Notes under the pieces: model-generated
The model's database searches: none
What the model was told of the DNA's origin: nothing
Seen by the model: the letters and a program-made list of their open reading frames with translations, nothing else
Made by a program: the position numbers and the translations under genes
Origin: Silvibacterium dinghuense
GTDB lineage: Bacteria; Acidobacteriota; Terriglobia; Terriglobales; Acidobacteriaceae
Length of the DNA stretch: 64,000 nt
Assembly (NCBI RefSeq): GCF_004123295.1
Contig: NZ_SDMK01000001.1
Coordinates: forward strand, 2,278,180 to 2,342,179
Direction of reading: 5' to 3'
In this document: positions 25,399-47,323 of the stretch, piece by piece
Numbering within the stretch: position 1 is the stretch's first letter
How the letters are laid out: each line of letters begins with the position of its first letter

Positions 25399-25445
25399 TG
25401 GTGGGCCCACCAGGACTTGAACCTGGAACCAACGGATTATGAGTC
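25399..25445 (-). pseudogene. 3' half of host tRNA(CAU) gene, split by element integration
   Basis: Read on the minus strand, this is the 3' half of a tRNA from the anticodon loop to the encoded CCA: anticodon loop, anticodon-stem 3' arm, 5-nt variable region, T-arm with CCAGG/CCTGG and loop TTCAAGT, acceptor strand TGGGCCC, then ACCA. Joined through the 11-bp core with the 5' half at 47283-47323, it rebuilds a complete 77-nt tRNA with every stem paired. On its own it cannot form a tRNA. Confidence 0.85.
25435..25445. repeat. Left attachment core (att), GATTATGAGTC
   Basis: This 11-bp direct repeat is identical to 47283-47293. It lies in the anticodon loop and first stem pairs of the disrupted tRNA gene and marks the left crossover region. 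Confidence 0.82.
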
Positions 25446-25565
25446 TCGGCTCAACTGCGTATGTCTATGAAAACTAAGAGTCGGCGAGCATAATTGAGAG
25501 TAGCCTTAAGTAGTTGGGGATACGTAGTTTAGAGCAGTTTGGCATAGTCAATCTGAGCTGATGTA

Positions 25566-25584
25566 TGTACCTCTGCTGTACCTC
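25566..25584 (+). promoter_or_regulatory. Left integrase arm-type sites (two TGTACCTC, 11 bp apart)
   Basis: TGTACCTC occurs at 25566-25573 and 25577-25584. The same octamer pair with the same 11-bp period lies at the right end (47091, 47102). One helical turn of spacing, and presence only near the two ends as far as I could see, suggest arm-type binding sites for the element integrase or its directionality factor. Confidence 0.6.
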
Positions 25585-25634
25585 AAAAAGGGTAAAACGC
25601 ATTTCAGCGCGTCTGTAAGGCGACTGGGTTTCCA

Positions 25635-25658
25635 ATTTCCAATTTGCGAATTGGAAAT
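25635..25658. promoter_or_regulatory. Operator-like palindrome before the seven-gene defence operon
   Basis: A perfect inverted repeat has 10-bp arms (ATTTCCAATT / AATTGGAAAT) and a 4-bp centre, 23 bases before the ATG of the winged-helix gene. An extra direct half-site TTTCCAATT sits at 25629-25637. A -10-like CATACT lies at 25670-25675. The position suggests autoregulation by the winged-helix protein. The rest of 25446-25634 shows only the arm sites. Confidence 0.55.
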
Positions 25659-25681
25659 ATTTTTGACATCATACTCGTGTC

Positions 25682-26188
25682 ATGCTTGGTCAAGATATAG
25701 CGCTTCTTTTGAAGCTCAGCTTAAGAGATGGCCCACGAGTCCTCGCGAAGGACCTCGCTCAAGAGCTTTGTTTAGCCCCTTCCGAGGTATCGAAGTCGCT
25801 CAGTCGATGTAGCGTAGCAGGACTCCTCTATATCTCTGACATCGAGAAGAGGGTCAATCGGTCCGCGCTTCTGGAATTCCTCACTCACGGGCTGAAGTAT
25901 GTTTTTCCACCCGAGAGGGGTTCATTGACGCGCGGAGTGCCGACGGCCATTTCAGCGGAACCGCTCAAATCGGCTTTTGTGGCGAGTGATGAGCCTCCCG
26001 CCGTATGGCCCTATGCCGAAGGATCGGTCCGTGGCCTTGCATTCAGCCCGCTATACAAAGGTGCCCCGAAAGCTGCACTGCTGGATAGTAGGTTTTATGA
26101 ACTCCTCGCAGTATGCGATGCCATTCGAGGCGGGAAAGTACGCGAAAGAACGCTGGCTATTGATTATCTGAAAAAGGCCCTGCACTAG
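25682..26188 (+). CDS. Winged-helix DNA-binding protein heading the defence operon
   Basis: The product has 168 aa. Residues 1-55 form a MarR/ArsR-like winged helix (LLLKLSLRDGPRVLAKDLAQELCLAPSEVSKSLSRCSVAGLLYI). The rest is a less conserved domain rich in aromatic residues and Pro. The gene sits just downstream of a perfect palindrome and ends exactly where the nucleotidyltransferase gene begins, so the two are probably translated together. It may be the operon repressor, or an AbiEi-like antitoxin partner of the nucleotidyltransferase. The functional role is an inference. Confidence 0.72.
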   Translation: MLGQDIALLLKLSLRDGPRVLAKDLAQELCLAPSEVSKSLSRCSVAGLLYISDIEKRVNRSALLEFLTHGLKYVFPPERGSLTRGVPTAISAEPLKSAFVASDEPPAVWPYAEGSVRGLAFSPLYKGAPKAALLDSRFYELLAVCDAIRGGKVRERTLAIDYLKKALH

Positions 26189-26884
26189 ATGCCAACGCGC
26201 GATCCTAATCTAGCTCTGCTGGAAGAGGCTGCCGAAAAGCTTGCTCCCTTCCTGAACGAGATCGTCTTCGTCGGCGGTGTCACGCTGGGGATTCTCATCT
26301 CCGATCCAGCATCGGCTCCCATCCGTAATACGAGCGATGTTGATGTGATTGCCGAGATTGTTACCTATGCGGACTACATCGAGTTCTCCGAGCGCTTGCG
26401 CGAGCAAGGCTTTAGCGAAGACATGGGTGAAGGAGCTCCTACTTGTCGTTGGAAGAGCGGGGCTCTCACGTTGGATGTGCTCGCTATCAGAGAAGAGGTG
26501 CTTGGATACACCAACATCTGGTACGAGAGCGCCCTCAATAACCCCATGCCCATTGAATTGAGTTCGGGACGATCGGTTCAAATCATCAAAGCCCCGTTCT
26601 TTCTGGGAACAAAGATGGAGGCTTTTCGAGGTCGCGGACAAAGTGATTTCGCAGCCAGTCACGACCTTGAGGACTTCATTGCAGTAATCGAAGGCCGGGA
26701 TGAACTGCTTGCCGAAATTGAAGAATGTCCCACAGACCTGCGCGGCTATCTGGCGCAAGCTGCCCAGTCACTCCTTGGCGAGTCCCTCTTCAAAGATGTG
26801 CTACCAGGATTCGTTCTTGATGACGGCCGAGTCCCGCTCATCCTAGACCGCTTGGCCAAGATCGCACAGACAGGCTCCCAATGA
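26189..26884 (+). CDS. Nucleotidyltransferase-fold protein (AbiEii-like)
   Basis: The 231-aa product has the minimal nucleotidyltransferase signature: FVGG (G29-G30), then TSDVDV with metal-binding D50-x-D52, and a third acidic residue D96 in GALTLDVLAI. The later APFFLGTKMEAFRGRGQSDF and ASHDLEDFIAVIEGRDEL segments match my memory of proteins annotated as AbiEii/AbiGii-type toxins. The gene begins immediately after the winged-helix stop and overlaps the helicase start by 4 bp. A toxin-antitoxin-like pair built into the head of a restriction operon is one reading; a regulatory nucleotidyltransferase is another. Confidence 0.75.
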   Translation: MPTRDPNLALLEEAAEKLAPFLNEIVFVGGVTLGILISDPASAPIRNTSDVDVIAEIVTYADYIEFSERLREQGFSEDMGEGAPTCRWKSGALTLDVLAIREEVLGYTNIWYESALNNPMPIELSSGRSVQIIKAPFFLGTKMEAFRGRGQSDFAASHDLEDFIAVIEGRDELLAEIEECPTDLRGYLAQAAQSLLGESLFKDVLPGFVLDDGRVPLILDRLAKIAQTGSQ

Positions 26885-45959: not shown

Positions 45960-47090
45960 CTATTTGATCAGAGCAGTTCCTCTAGCACTCACGAGGTGAT
46001 CGAGCTTAGTCACCAGATCCTCAGCACGCAGGTGCGTATATCGCTTCAGCATTTGCATAGACTTATGACCGCTGATCGCGGAGACCTCTTGGTCAGAAAA
46101 TCCTGCTTCCACAAATCGACTTACGGCTTCATGTCTGAGGTCGTGGAAGCGGACATCCTCGAGGCCCTGTTGACGCTTGATATTCAGCCACACAGGATTG
46201 AACTGGTAGGGGTGGCGTTTGCTATCACGTCCGGGCTCACCGTAGAAGATCAGGTCTGTGTCTTTAGGGCGGACAGGATGATTTAGCGCTTCACGGAAGA
46301 GTGCTGCAGCGGTGGTTGTTAGTGGAACGGTGCGGGGAGATGTGTTCTTTGTCTCCAGAAGGCGAACAATACGCCTCTTCAAGTCCACCTGCATTTTGCG
46401 CAAAGTAAGAATCTCAGAAGAACGCATACCTGTTTCAAGGGCAATGCGAACGATCCAGCGCAACATTGGGTTTGAGTGCTGATCTACGGCGACGAGCAAC
46501 CGCTTCTCTTCATCTGGCGTGAGTCGGCGGTTACGTCCTGGGCCAGGTGCGGGGCGGCGGATGTTCATCACCGGGTTCGACGGCAGGCCGATGCCCCACT
46601 CTTTGATCGCCACGGTGAACAGGTGGCCGAGCAACGCGAGGTCGAGCCGAACAGTATTGTTCGAGCGCGGAATGGGTTTGCCCTTTGCGTCTTTGCGGTC
46701 CTCCCCAGCAAGACGTGTGTCTCTAAATTTTGCAACGATCTCAGGCGTGAGCGCGGTGAGCGAATACTTGCCCAGGTGCTCGATGAGAATCTTCGAGCGG
46801 TTGTGATCGGAAACCTGAGTACTGGGCCGCTTGGTCGGCGTCACTTCAGCAATGTAGCGTTCGAGCGCCTTAGCGACGGTGAGGCGATCCGCTGGCGCGC
46901 GCTGGATGTATGCGCCGCGCACCATGTCGTCTTCCGTGCGGCGAGCCCAGTCTTCCGCATCGCGCTTCGTGCGAAAGGTCTTCGATGTCGTAGGCCATCC
47001 GGTCTTGCGGATGACAGCTTTCCACTTGCCGAGATCGGTCTTTACGAGGGTCGCCAAGCGTACCTCCGGTGTGTACCGCGAGAGCGGCAC
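45960..47090 (-). CDS. int: Tyrosine integrase of the element
   Basis: The 376-aa product is a tyrosine recombinase with an N-terminal arm-binding region (KWKAVIRKTGWPTTSKTFRTK), a SAM-like core-binding domain and a catalytic domain. The full catalytic set is visible: R223 (TGMRSSE), K248 (LETKNT), H316-x-x-R319 (FHDLRH), H342 (SGHKS) and the nucleophile Y351 (KRYTHL). The GTG start at 47090 has GAGG five bases upstream, and that Shine-Dalgarno lies within a likely arm site, which suggests autorepression. It sits next to the attachment tRNA and should catalyse integration and excision at the anticodon-loop core. Confidence 0.95.
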   Translation of the reverse strand: MPLSRYTPEVRLATLVKTDLGKWKAVIRKTGWPTTSKTFRTKRDAEDWARRTEDDMVRGAYIQRAPADRLTVAKALERYIAEVTPTKRPSTQVSDHNRSKILIEHLGKYSLTALTPEIVAKFRDTRLAGEDRKDAKGKPIPRSNNTVRLDLALLGHLFTVAIKEWGIGLPSNPVMNIRRPAPGPGRNRRLTPDEEKRLLVAVDQHSNPMLRWIVRIALETGMRSSEILTLRKMQVDLKRRIVRLLETKNTSPRTVPLTTTAAALFREALNHPVRPKDTDLIFYGEPGRDSKRHPYQFNPVWLNIKRQQGLEDVRFHDLRHEAVSRFVEAGFSDQEVSAISGHKSMQMLKRYTHLRAEDLVTKLDHLVSARGTALIK

Positions 47091-47109
47091 TGTACCTCAA
47101 GTGTACCTC
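47091..47109 (-). promoter_or_regulatory. Right integrase arm-type sites overlapping the int ribosome-binding site
   Basis: TGTACCTC occurs at 47091-47098 and 47102-47109 (11-bp period, as at the left end), with a single copy at 47255-47262 and a near-copy CGTACCTC at 47059-47066. On the minus strand the first copy reads GAGGTACA, which includes the GAGG of the int start. Confidence 0.6.
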
Positions 47110-47129
47110 GGTTGGATTTTTGGAAGGAG

Positions 47130-47205
47130 TGGTGGGCCCACCAGGATTCGAACCTGGAACCAAAGCATTATGAGTGCTCTGCTCTAACCGTTGAGCTATA
47201 GGCCC
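47130..47205 (-). tRNA. tRNA(CAU), probably Ile2, carried by the element
   Basis: The gene is 76 nt including the encoded CCA. All arms pair: acceptor GGGCCTA/TGGGCCC, D-stem GCTC/GAGC, anticodon stem GAGCA/TGCTT with loop CTCATAA, and T-stem CCAGG/CCTGG with loop TTCGAAT. The anticodon is CAT, so it is either tRNA-Ile2 (lysidine-modified) or elongator tRNA-Met. C4 and C5 in the acceptor stem, which I recall as recognition features for lysidine synthetase, favour Ile2. It lies inside the att boundaries and differs from the split host copy in the anticodon stem, D-loop and T-loop, so it is element-borne rather than a simple duplication. Confidence 0.93.
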
Positions 47206-47282
47206 TTTATGTCGATTTCGATCTTTTTTCCCGAGGTCGAAATCTTGCCTCGATTGTACCTCAGTCCGTTGGTGCAGCTGCT

Positions 47283-47293
47283 GATTATGAGTC
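47283..47293. repeat. Right attachment core (att), GATTATGAGTC
   Basis: This is identical to 25435-25445. It is the anticodon-loop core shared by both tRNA halves and marks the right crossover region of the element. Confidence 0.82.
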
Positions 47294-47323
47294 CGCTGCT
47301 CTAACCGATTGAGCTATAGGCCC
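47283..47323 (-). pseudogene. 5' half of host tRNA(CAU) gene, split by element integration
   Basis: Read on the minus strand this is acceptor strand GGGCCTA, D-arm, anticodon-stem 5' arm GCGGA and the anticodon loop. It stops at the att core. What follows inward is element sequence, not the missing 3' half, so it is not restored. The host tRNA promoter should lie to its right (47324 onward). Confidence 0.85.

Follow-up and report, generated by a model that had tools for sequence, protein, structure and literature searches.

Probable tRNA-dependent integration of a plasmid-like defence element at the tRNA-Ile2(CAU) gene of Silvibacterium dinghuense

How can an integrating element break the only tRNA-Ile2(CAU) gene of its host and leave it unrepaired? 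This question is raised by a 64,000-nucleotide stretch of Silvibacterium dinghuense DNA (contig NZ_SDMK01000001.1 of assembly GCF_004123295.1, positions 2,278,180 to 2,342,179; here called the window), in which an element bounded by the two halves of a tRNA gene carries, next to its integrase, an intact tRNA with the same anticodon. Very probably, this is a plasmid-like defence element that uses tRNA-dependent integration, with its complete tRNA, which we call the spare, replacing the destroyed tRNA-Ile2 of the host.

The two half-genes, described in an earlier note made from the sequence alone, share an 11-bp core, GATTATGAGTC, and the cores are 21,837 bp apart (Table 1). Joining the flanks at the core yields a 77-nt tRNA with the anticodon CAU, which is folded by ARAGORN and has 7/7 acceptor and 5/5 anticodon-stem pairs. 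Neither junction completes a tRNA, and the element sequence regenerates no target gene, unlike that of a restoring (Islander-type) island; the note had seen that neither half is repaired, and this turned out to be the unusual feature of the locus. It had also taken the insertion into the anticodon loop for an exception, which is in fact common, as the accessible part of the Islander report counts 2083 anticodon-centred sites versus 1836 in the T-stem region (PMC4383910). The far end of the element is marked by the displaced tRNA fragment, and the G+C content is 0.546 in the element versus 0.619 and 0.624 outside. Among nine genomes of the genus, the own one included, the congener G117 holds the uninterrupted 77-nt gene expected of an unoccupied relative, 100% identical to the rejoined sequence and followed by three protein homologues (59, 80 and 78% identity) in the same order as to the right of the element, and the spare is absent from this locus. 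Two outcomes that the note had named as refuting, a relative lacking the rejoined gene and the spare at this locus in a genome free of the element, did not occur. The two halves and their core are therefore more than a chance match. The empty site was located by the joined flanks, after a first congener stretch, taken via the left neighbour of the element, had shown no tRNA; in the congener G066, the Ile2 region had no synteny within the 19 kb taken.

The spare is the only intact tRNA detected in the window by ARAGORN and by Rfam, and it lies inside both cores, between one core and the integrase, 77 bases from the 5′ half. Along the minus strand, the host 5′ half is followed after 77 bp by the spare; another ~72 bp, which contain GTACC-type repeats, lead to the probable start codon of the integrase. 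The spare shares 91% identity with the rejoined Ile2 and retains CAU; its core reads CATTATGAGTG, and only the nine central bases match the host core, in agreement with the earlier note. In the focal genome (5.12 Mb, 9 contigs, 99.93% complete), all 46 tRNA matches were typed with ARAGORN (30 loci plus 16 further stretches). The anticodon CAU occurs in three of them, the spare and what we take, from general tRNA features and the 91% identity of spare and rejoined gene, to be the elongator Met and initiator tRNAs. No other Ile2 and no Ile(UAU) gene was found among the 46, so that the host copy appears to have been the only Ile2, as the note had supposed. Because the remaining Ile tRNA genes are GAU only, AUA has no candidate reader other than the spare. 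The genome also encodes TilS.

In the mechanism that we propose, the integrase would act on a short core, GACTCATAATC in the orientation of the tRNA, that the element shares with the anticodon loop of the single host tRNA-Ile2(CAU), and would recombine the two copies. The host gene would be destroyed because the element supplies neither half, and the complete Ile2 between core and integrase would substitute for it. The spare would be transcribed, perhaps by read-through from the promoter of the broken gene, and would be modified by TilS and read AUA. Its loss should be lethal, and excision would rejoin the host gene. Such reliance on the element's Ile2 would help to keep the defence cargo in place, since cells that delete the spare should die unless the host gene is restored as well. 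The disrupted tRNA gene is probably essential and elements of this type are probably hard to lose; they may also enter very different hosts.

Table 1 Features of the element and its boundaries in the window.
Feature	Position	Strand	Evidence
Displaced 3′ half of host tRNA-Ile2(CAU) with one core copy (25435-25445), attachment junction	25399..25445	-	sequence, rejoining
Two further GTACC-type repeats at the far element end, putative arm-type sites	25566-25573, 25577-25585		sequence; function predicted
Candidate two-gene defence system PDC-M21A/B	25682..26884	+	PADLOC E 4.9e-44, 2.3e-59
SNF2-type helicase, DUF4391 protein, type III methyltransferase (Mod), RhuM-like protein (PDC-S05), type III restriction enzyme (Res)	26881..37084	+	Pfam, PADLOC
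Metallophosphoesterase, weak NikA-like protein, unidentified 395-aa protein, ParA	37123..40814	-	Pfam; NikA-like match below curated cut-off
Hachiman defence system, HamA and HamB	42526..45587	+	PADLOC E 3.8e-106, 2.2e-186
Tyrosine integrase; true start probably TTG at 47057 (alignment with relatives, MATLVKT...)	45960..47090	-	PF00589 E 1.2e-33, PHROG integrase, alignment
Four GTACC-type repeats in the integrase-spare interval, putative arm-type sites of the integrase	47060..47109		sequence; function predicted
Complete spare tRNA-Ile2(CAU), sole intact Ile2 found in the genome	47130..47205	-	ARAGORN, Rfam 72.5 bits, genome tRNA census
Core-to-spare spacer, 77 bp, with 8-bp inverted repeat (47214-47221 / 47237-47244) and one TGTACCTCA repeat (47256-47264)	47206..47282	-	sequence
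5′ half of host tRNA-Ile2(CAU) with the other core copy (47283-47293), attachment junction	47283..47323	-	sequence, rejoining

The element is plasmid-like and carries defence genes. A PHROG scan of 10 of its proteins, the large defence proteins excluded, returned integrase, ParA and phosphoesterase families, and neither these ten nor the Pfam scans of the other large proteins contained a phage structural family. Because such families are absent from the proteins scanned, the element works like tRNA-dependent lysogeny yet is not lysogeny. Nor is it an integrative and conjugative element, the only trace of conjugation machinery of its own in the Pfam scans being the NikA-like match below cut-off.

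Lysogeny of this kind has been demonstrated by experiment in actinobacteriophages (Fionnbharth, LeBron, OneUp, Mollymur and Gaia), with Ile2-CAT among the targets, according to the accessible sections of PMC10865867. There as here, a tyrosine integrase acts on a short core in a host tRNA (8-17 bp in the phages, 11 bp in our element), the tRNA is not reconstructed and a tRNA of the same isotype is encoded; in our case, the disrupted tRNA was the only one of its host. However, the actinophages are temperate phages in which the requirement was demonstrated experimentally, whereas the focal element is plasmid-like and carries defence genes. Its spare sits between core and integrase, unlike in the actinophage systems as these sections describe them, and its integrase family differs from theirs as far as tested, with 38% identity for the best phage match listed. 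Restoring islands in tRNA genes share the tyrosine integrase, the anticodon-centred crossover and the displaced 3′ fragment at the far end (PMC4383910, same part), and the focal integrase is of the same family as its own restoring relatives; in contrast to such islands, the target is not regenerated and a second complete gene substitutes for it. In Sinorhizobium meliloti, phage-related sequences, islands included, bring a tRNA that replaces an inactivated host tRNA by a similar isoacceptor, but these are alphaproteobacterial and mainly described as derived from phages, and the available parts of PMC11476347 contain no comparable cassette or integrase family. The prophage Lj965 of Lactobacillus johnsonii, as cited in the accessible sections of PMC10865867, likewise leaves its tRNA unreconstructed and encodes the cognate one, but is a prophage of Firmicutes. 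In the titles and abstract openings that made up our literature search, with subscription papers mostly outside it, neither this cassette nor any case of tRNA-dependent integration in Acidobacteriota or plasmid-like defence elements was mentioned. The principle is thus known from actinophages; new is its operation in plasmid-like defence elements as a compact cassette.

We then compared the locus with relatives of its integrase. A same-family search of 300 genomes gave an integrase match in 18, the own genome included (three partial, three only 32-40% identical); to these were added the best 80 of 344 relatives from a genome-contig scan and 18 of 42 integrase loci in viral contigs, the 24 others being nearly all 27-32% identical. 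The resulting working set holds 116 of 140 rows, with eight row pairs that are duplicates by tRNA and flanks. ARAGORN placed a tRNA on the integrase strand within 800 bp in 89 rows and none in 27. Among the latter, L052 and L056 have only a tRNA-Leu 3′ part adjoining the integrase, as expected of a restoring attP that has not been joined to a host 5′ half.

The architecture was tested in the 87 rows with sufficient upstream sequence, and in 12 of them a broken Ile2 5′ half ends 74-78 bp before a complete Ile2; these spare-type rows score 52-74, versus at most 24 for shuffles. They comprise the focal locus, Hydrogenophilus (L070), Pseudomonas (L071), Nevskiales (L072), Crenobacter (L073), Thiohalocapsa (L076), Lampropedia (L080), Marinobacter (L081), Comamonas (L082), Xanthomonas (L083), a gammaproteobacterial metagenome-assembled genome (L087) and a viral contig (L145). 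The cassette of core, 74-78 bp, whole Ile2 and integrase thus spans Acidobacteriota, Beta- and Gammaproteobacteria; a thirteenth locus, L328, was found later and stands outside the counts. Other elements combining this integrase, an intact CAU tRNA and a broken 5′ half, for which the earlier note had proposed to search, therefore exist, and its main inference is supported. No spare-type Leu, Lys or Thr element was present among the 87 loci. The spacer after the longer aligned half measures 74-75 bp at the other loci and 78 bp in the focal element. The note's suggestion that a spare may escape its own integrase does not hold as a general rule, since the altered core is restricted to the focal element and all 11 other spares have an unaltered ACTCATAATC.

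The displaced 3′ half is known at nine of the 12 loci, on the contig of the spare in five (focal, L071, L076, L082, L083) and on another contig in four (L070, L073, L081, L087, with the L070 half also called a tRNA by ARAGORN, which we took as spurious). None was found for L072 and L080 in the stretches taken or for L145 in its locus, a 26-kb fragment from a collection of predicted viral contigs that is uninformative on its host. All nine loci with both halves rejoin with 7/7 acceptor and 5/5 anticodon-stem pairs. Each of the 12 genomes or records has exactly two Ile2 matches to the 5′-half pattern, with one mismatch in the case of the focal spare. The host halves vary between hosts while the spares are shared, being identical in L071, L072, L076 and L081 and again in L080, L082 and L083. 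Hybrids of host 5′ half and spare 3′ half keep all 12 acceptor and anticodon-stem pairs in 0/11 cases (those of L070, L073 and L083 lose one pair only), which means that the spare does not also serve to restore the host gene; spare and displaced host half are equal over a 26-base stretch in 0/9 loci. A conserved hairpin before the spare is a mere candidate feature of the 12 spacers (z -1.1 to -3.6 against mononucleotide shuffles). We also considered that the spacer is a decayed tRNA 3′ half: its first 14 bases are Ile2-like in eight of ten distinct spacers (shuffle p 0.002-0.03, the spacers being mutually related), which is suggestive only and unsupported in the focal element (p 0.45) and L070 (p 0.12).

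In the remaining 77 tRNA-bearing rows, a single intact tRNA precedes the integrase (45 CAU, 26 Leu-CAA, 4 Leu-TAA, 1 Lys-TTT, 1 Thr-CGT), and none of the 75 tested showed an upstream 5′ half. Restoration was examined for the CAU rows: the genomes of 18 of the 45 (41 distinct) were searched for halves, and 18/18 had exactly one Ile2 5′ half. Exactly two 3′ halves, restored and displaced, were found in 16 (on one contig in 13, on two in three), and the two are identical over 26 matched bases in 15 of the 16 pairs; L065 has one 3′ half and L110 none, its tRNA not fitting the pattern. Stem pairs are 12/12 in 44 of the 45 CAU tRNAs and 11 in L101. The majority of the integrase family thus appears to restore its target tRNA rather than to carry a spare, and the idea that every integrase-adjacent tRNA is a spare with switching isotype (Ile2, Leu, Thr) was rejected, most being restored host genes. 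In L061 (genome G039), an intact 77-nt Ile2 without a 5′ half upstream is followed after 47 bp by an integrase remnant that shares 83% identity with the focal integrase over 138 residues; this locus is the closest relative of the focal cassette in restoring form.

That the focal element, like most of its relatives, integrated in the ordinary way, with the integrase-adjacent tRNA as the restored host gene and the 5′ half as an unrelated leftover, is hardly credible, given that the halves share the core and rejoin to a perfect tRNA uninterrupted in a congener, that the spare lies inside both cores, and that the focal genome has two 5′ halves versus one in every restoring genome searched. It is also very improbable that the spare is accidental cargo, silent or redundant, with AUA read by something else: the failure of a consensus scan to find a promoter would fit, but the tRNA census offers no other reader, the spare keeps every acceptor and anticodon-stem pair despite differing in sequence from the host gene, and the arrangement with the spare as the only Ile2 recurs in other hosts. 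We further consider it unlikely that the element integrated in a tRNA-dependent manner and has since lost excision or movement. Such grounding would agree with the scarcity of conjugation genes and with the architecture's occurrence in 1/396 Acidobacteriota genomes searched, the focal one; against it speak the exact 11-bp cores, an uninterrupted integrase frame, the identity of the host halves with the gene of the congener, and a G+C content below that of the flanks.

Several observations weigh against tRNA-dependent integration with a replacing spare. The assignment to Ile2 rests on sequence, and no sigma-70-like promoter was found around the spare in a simple consensus scan. The Ile2 counts in the other spare-type hosts are pattern matches from assemblies whose completeness is not given, and G303 and G305 contain a further CAU tRNA with a GGCG-type acceptor, which we took for the elongator Met as no other candidate was present there. 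The left flank of the element has no synteny in G117, where the MGMT-like left neighbour lies on a different contig.

The spare-type group was set by architecture ahead of a quick integrase tree of 102 sequences, from which 13 short or broken rows and L064 were left out; integrase and tRNA module may have recombined. On this tree, spare-type carriage requires six changes, at least five of them forced by starred branches, and the focal integrase clusters with restoring Acidobacteriota. A single spare-type clade was rejected when approximately unbiased (AU) tests were run on a set thinned to 61 rows, both for all 12 spare-type rows (p 2.3e-45) and with the focal row removed (p 1.5e-25). Among the genome-contig rows (the best 80 of 344), integrases of at least 90% identity occur in different orders in 9/11 spare-type versus 0/154 restoring pairs, pairs with a named order being counted. 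At 90%, each of the two spare-type clusters extends over three orders, in one case across Beta- and Gammaproteobacteria, compared with 0/10 restoring clusters that extend over more than one.

That near-identical spare-type integrases cross orders and restoring ones do not suggests that an element with a whole tRNA no longer has to match the tRNA of its host. A restoring element would have to bring a 3′ half that fits the host 5′ half, whereas a spare-type element would need only the ~10-bp anticodon-loop core common to Ile2 genes. Tentatively, and with some doubt, we propose that whole-tRNA carriage is a host-range switch, that the integrase family has changed repeatedly from one state to the other, and that spare-type lineages cross orders and classes with their defence cargo, binding hosts through an essential tRNA. 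There is almost an even chance that the scatter on the tree instead reflects exchange of tRNA modules between elements and the order-crossing reflects sampling. Mixed spare-restoring pairs at 85% identity also cross orders (12/14), the restoring clusters are mostly from the heavily sequenced Alcaligenaceae and Halomonadaceae, the pairs are non-independent and two spare-type clusters are few; all this counts against a host-range effect, and the contrast between none of ten and both of two clusters counts for it. The order-crossing supports such an effect and does not prove it.

If the replacing spare works as proposed, the actinophage mechanism also operates in plasmid-like defence elements of Acidobacteriota and of two proteobacterial classes, and one integrase family holds restoring and tRNA-carrying integration side by side on one tree. 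The accessible sections of PMC10865867 call the relation to restoring integration unclear and leave the prevalence outside actinophages for further study; both become testable here. The loss of an essential tRNA would also give a simple account of how such defence islands may persist, and carrying one an account of how they may pass between distant hosts.

The cargo of other spare-type elements was sampled with Pfam in 29 proteins from four loci, part of their open reading frames (ORFs), 28 of them inside the elements. Xanthomonas has an XhoI-type restriction-modification enzyme, Abi_C, NikA/MobC, TrbL and a VirB5-like type IV secretion protein; Comamonas has NikA/MobC, TrbL and a methyltransferase-like protein; Pseudomonas has PglZ, a Schlafen-like protein and a partial TrbL; and Thiohalocapsa has HsdR/M/S, GmrSD, a reverse transcriptase, HerA, SIR2 and TrbL. 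No phage structural domain was detected among the 29 proteins. Conjugation genes were incomplete in each of these relatives as far as their proteins were scanned: TrbL turned up in all four, NikA/MobC in two and a VirB5-like protein in one. In a plasmid search (E up to 1e-60), the integrase occurred only in two chromosome-sized Proteus records (51%). A phage search (E up to 1e-30) returned 24 records, all below 60% identity, and none of the 20 listed was an actinophage.

The cassette pattern was also found in 3/390 genomes of the order of G301, namely in G301 itself, at the new spare-type locus L328 and at a different remnant, L329. At L329 (genome G932, ~1470-1690), an Ile2 is broken in the T loop and a second broken Ile2 5′ half follows ~70 bp on; no other Ile2 was found in G932 by the 5′-half pattern with up to one mismatch, and this is possibly another, unrelated Ile2 replacement. 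Among viral contigs, the pattern gave 11 matches, of which one is the L145 contig and seven look like adjacent tRNA genes. The viral loci L288, L290 and L292 each have a GACTCATAATC-like core 70-90 bp ahead of a complete CAU tRNA, and no integrase of this family in the stretch examined; a similarity search of L290 gave no identification beyond its tRNA. Their arrangement resembles the actinophage one, as far as the accessible sections of PMC10865867 describe it, and the spacing of the present cassette.

At L062 (~57-252), a 19-nt tRNA-Thr 5′ piece lies ~100 bp before an intact tRNA-Thr(CGT), with a nearby integrase 40% identical to the focal one. In the focal genome, a tRNA-Cys(GCA) gene at L021 (G000:C3:487622), whose 3-kb locus has ORFs without an integrase, lies ~7 kb from a second, very dissimilar tRNA-Cys(GCA) gene at G000:C3:480872.

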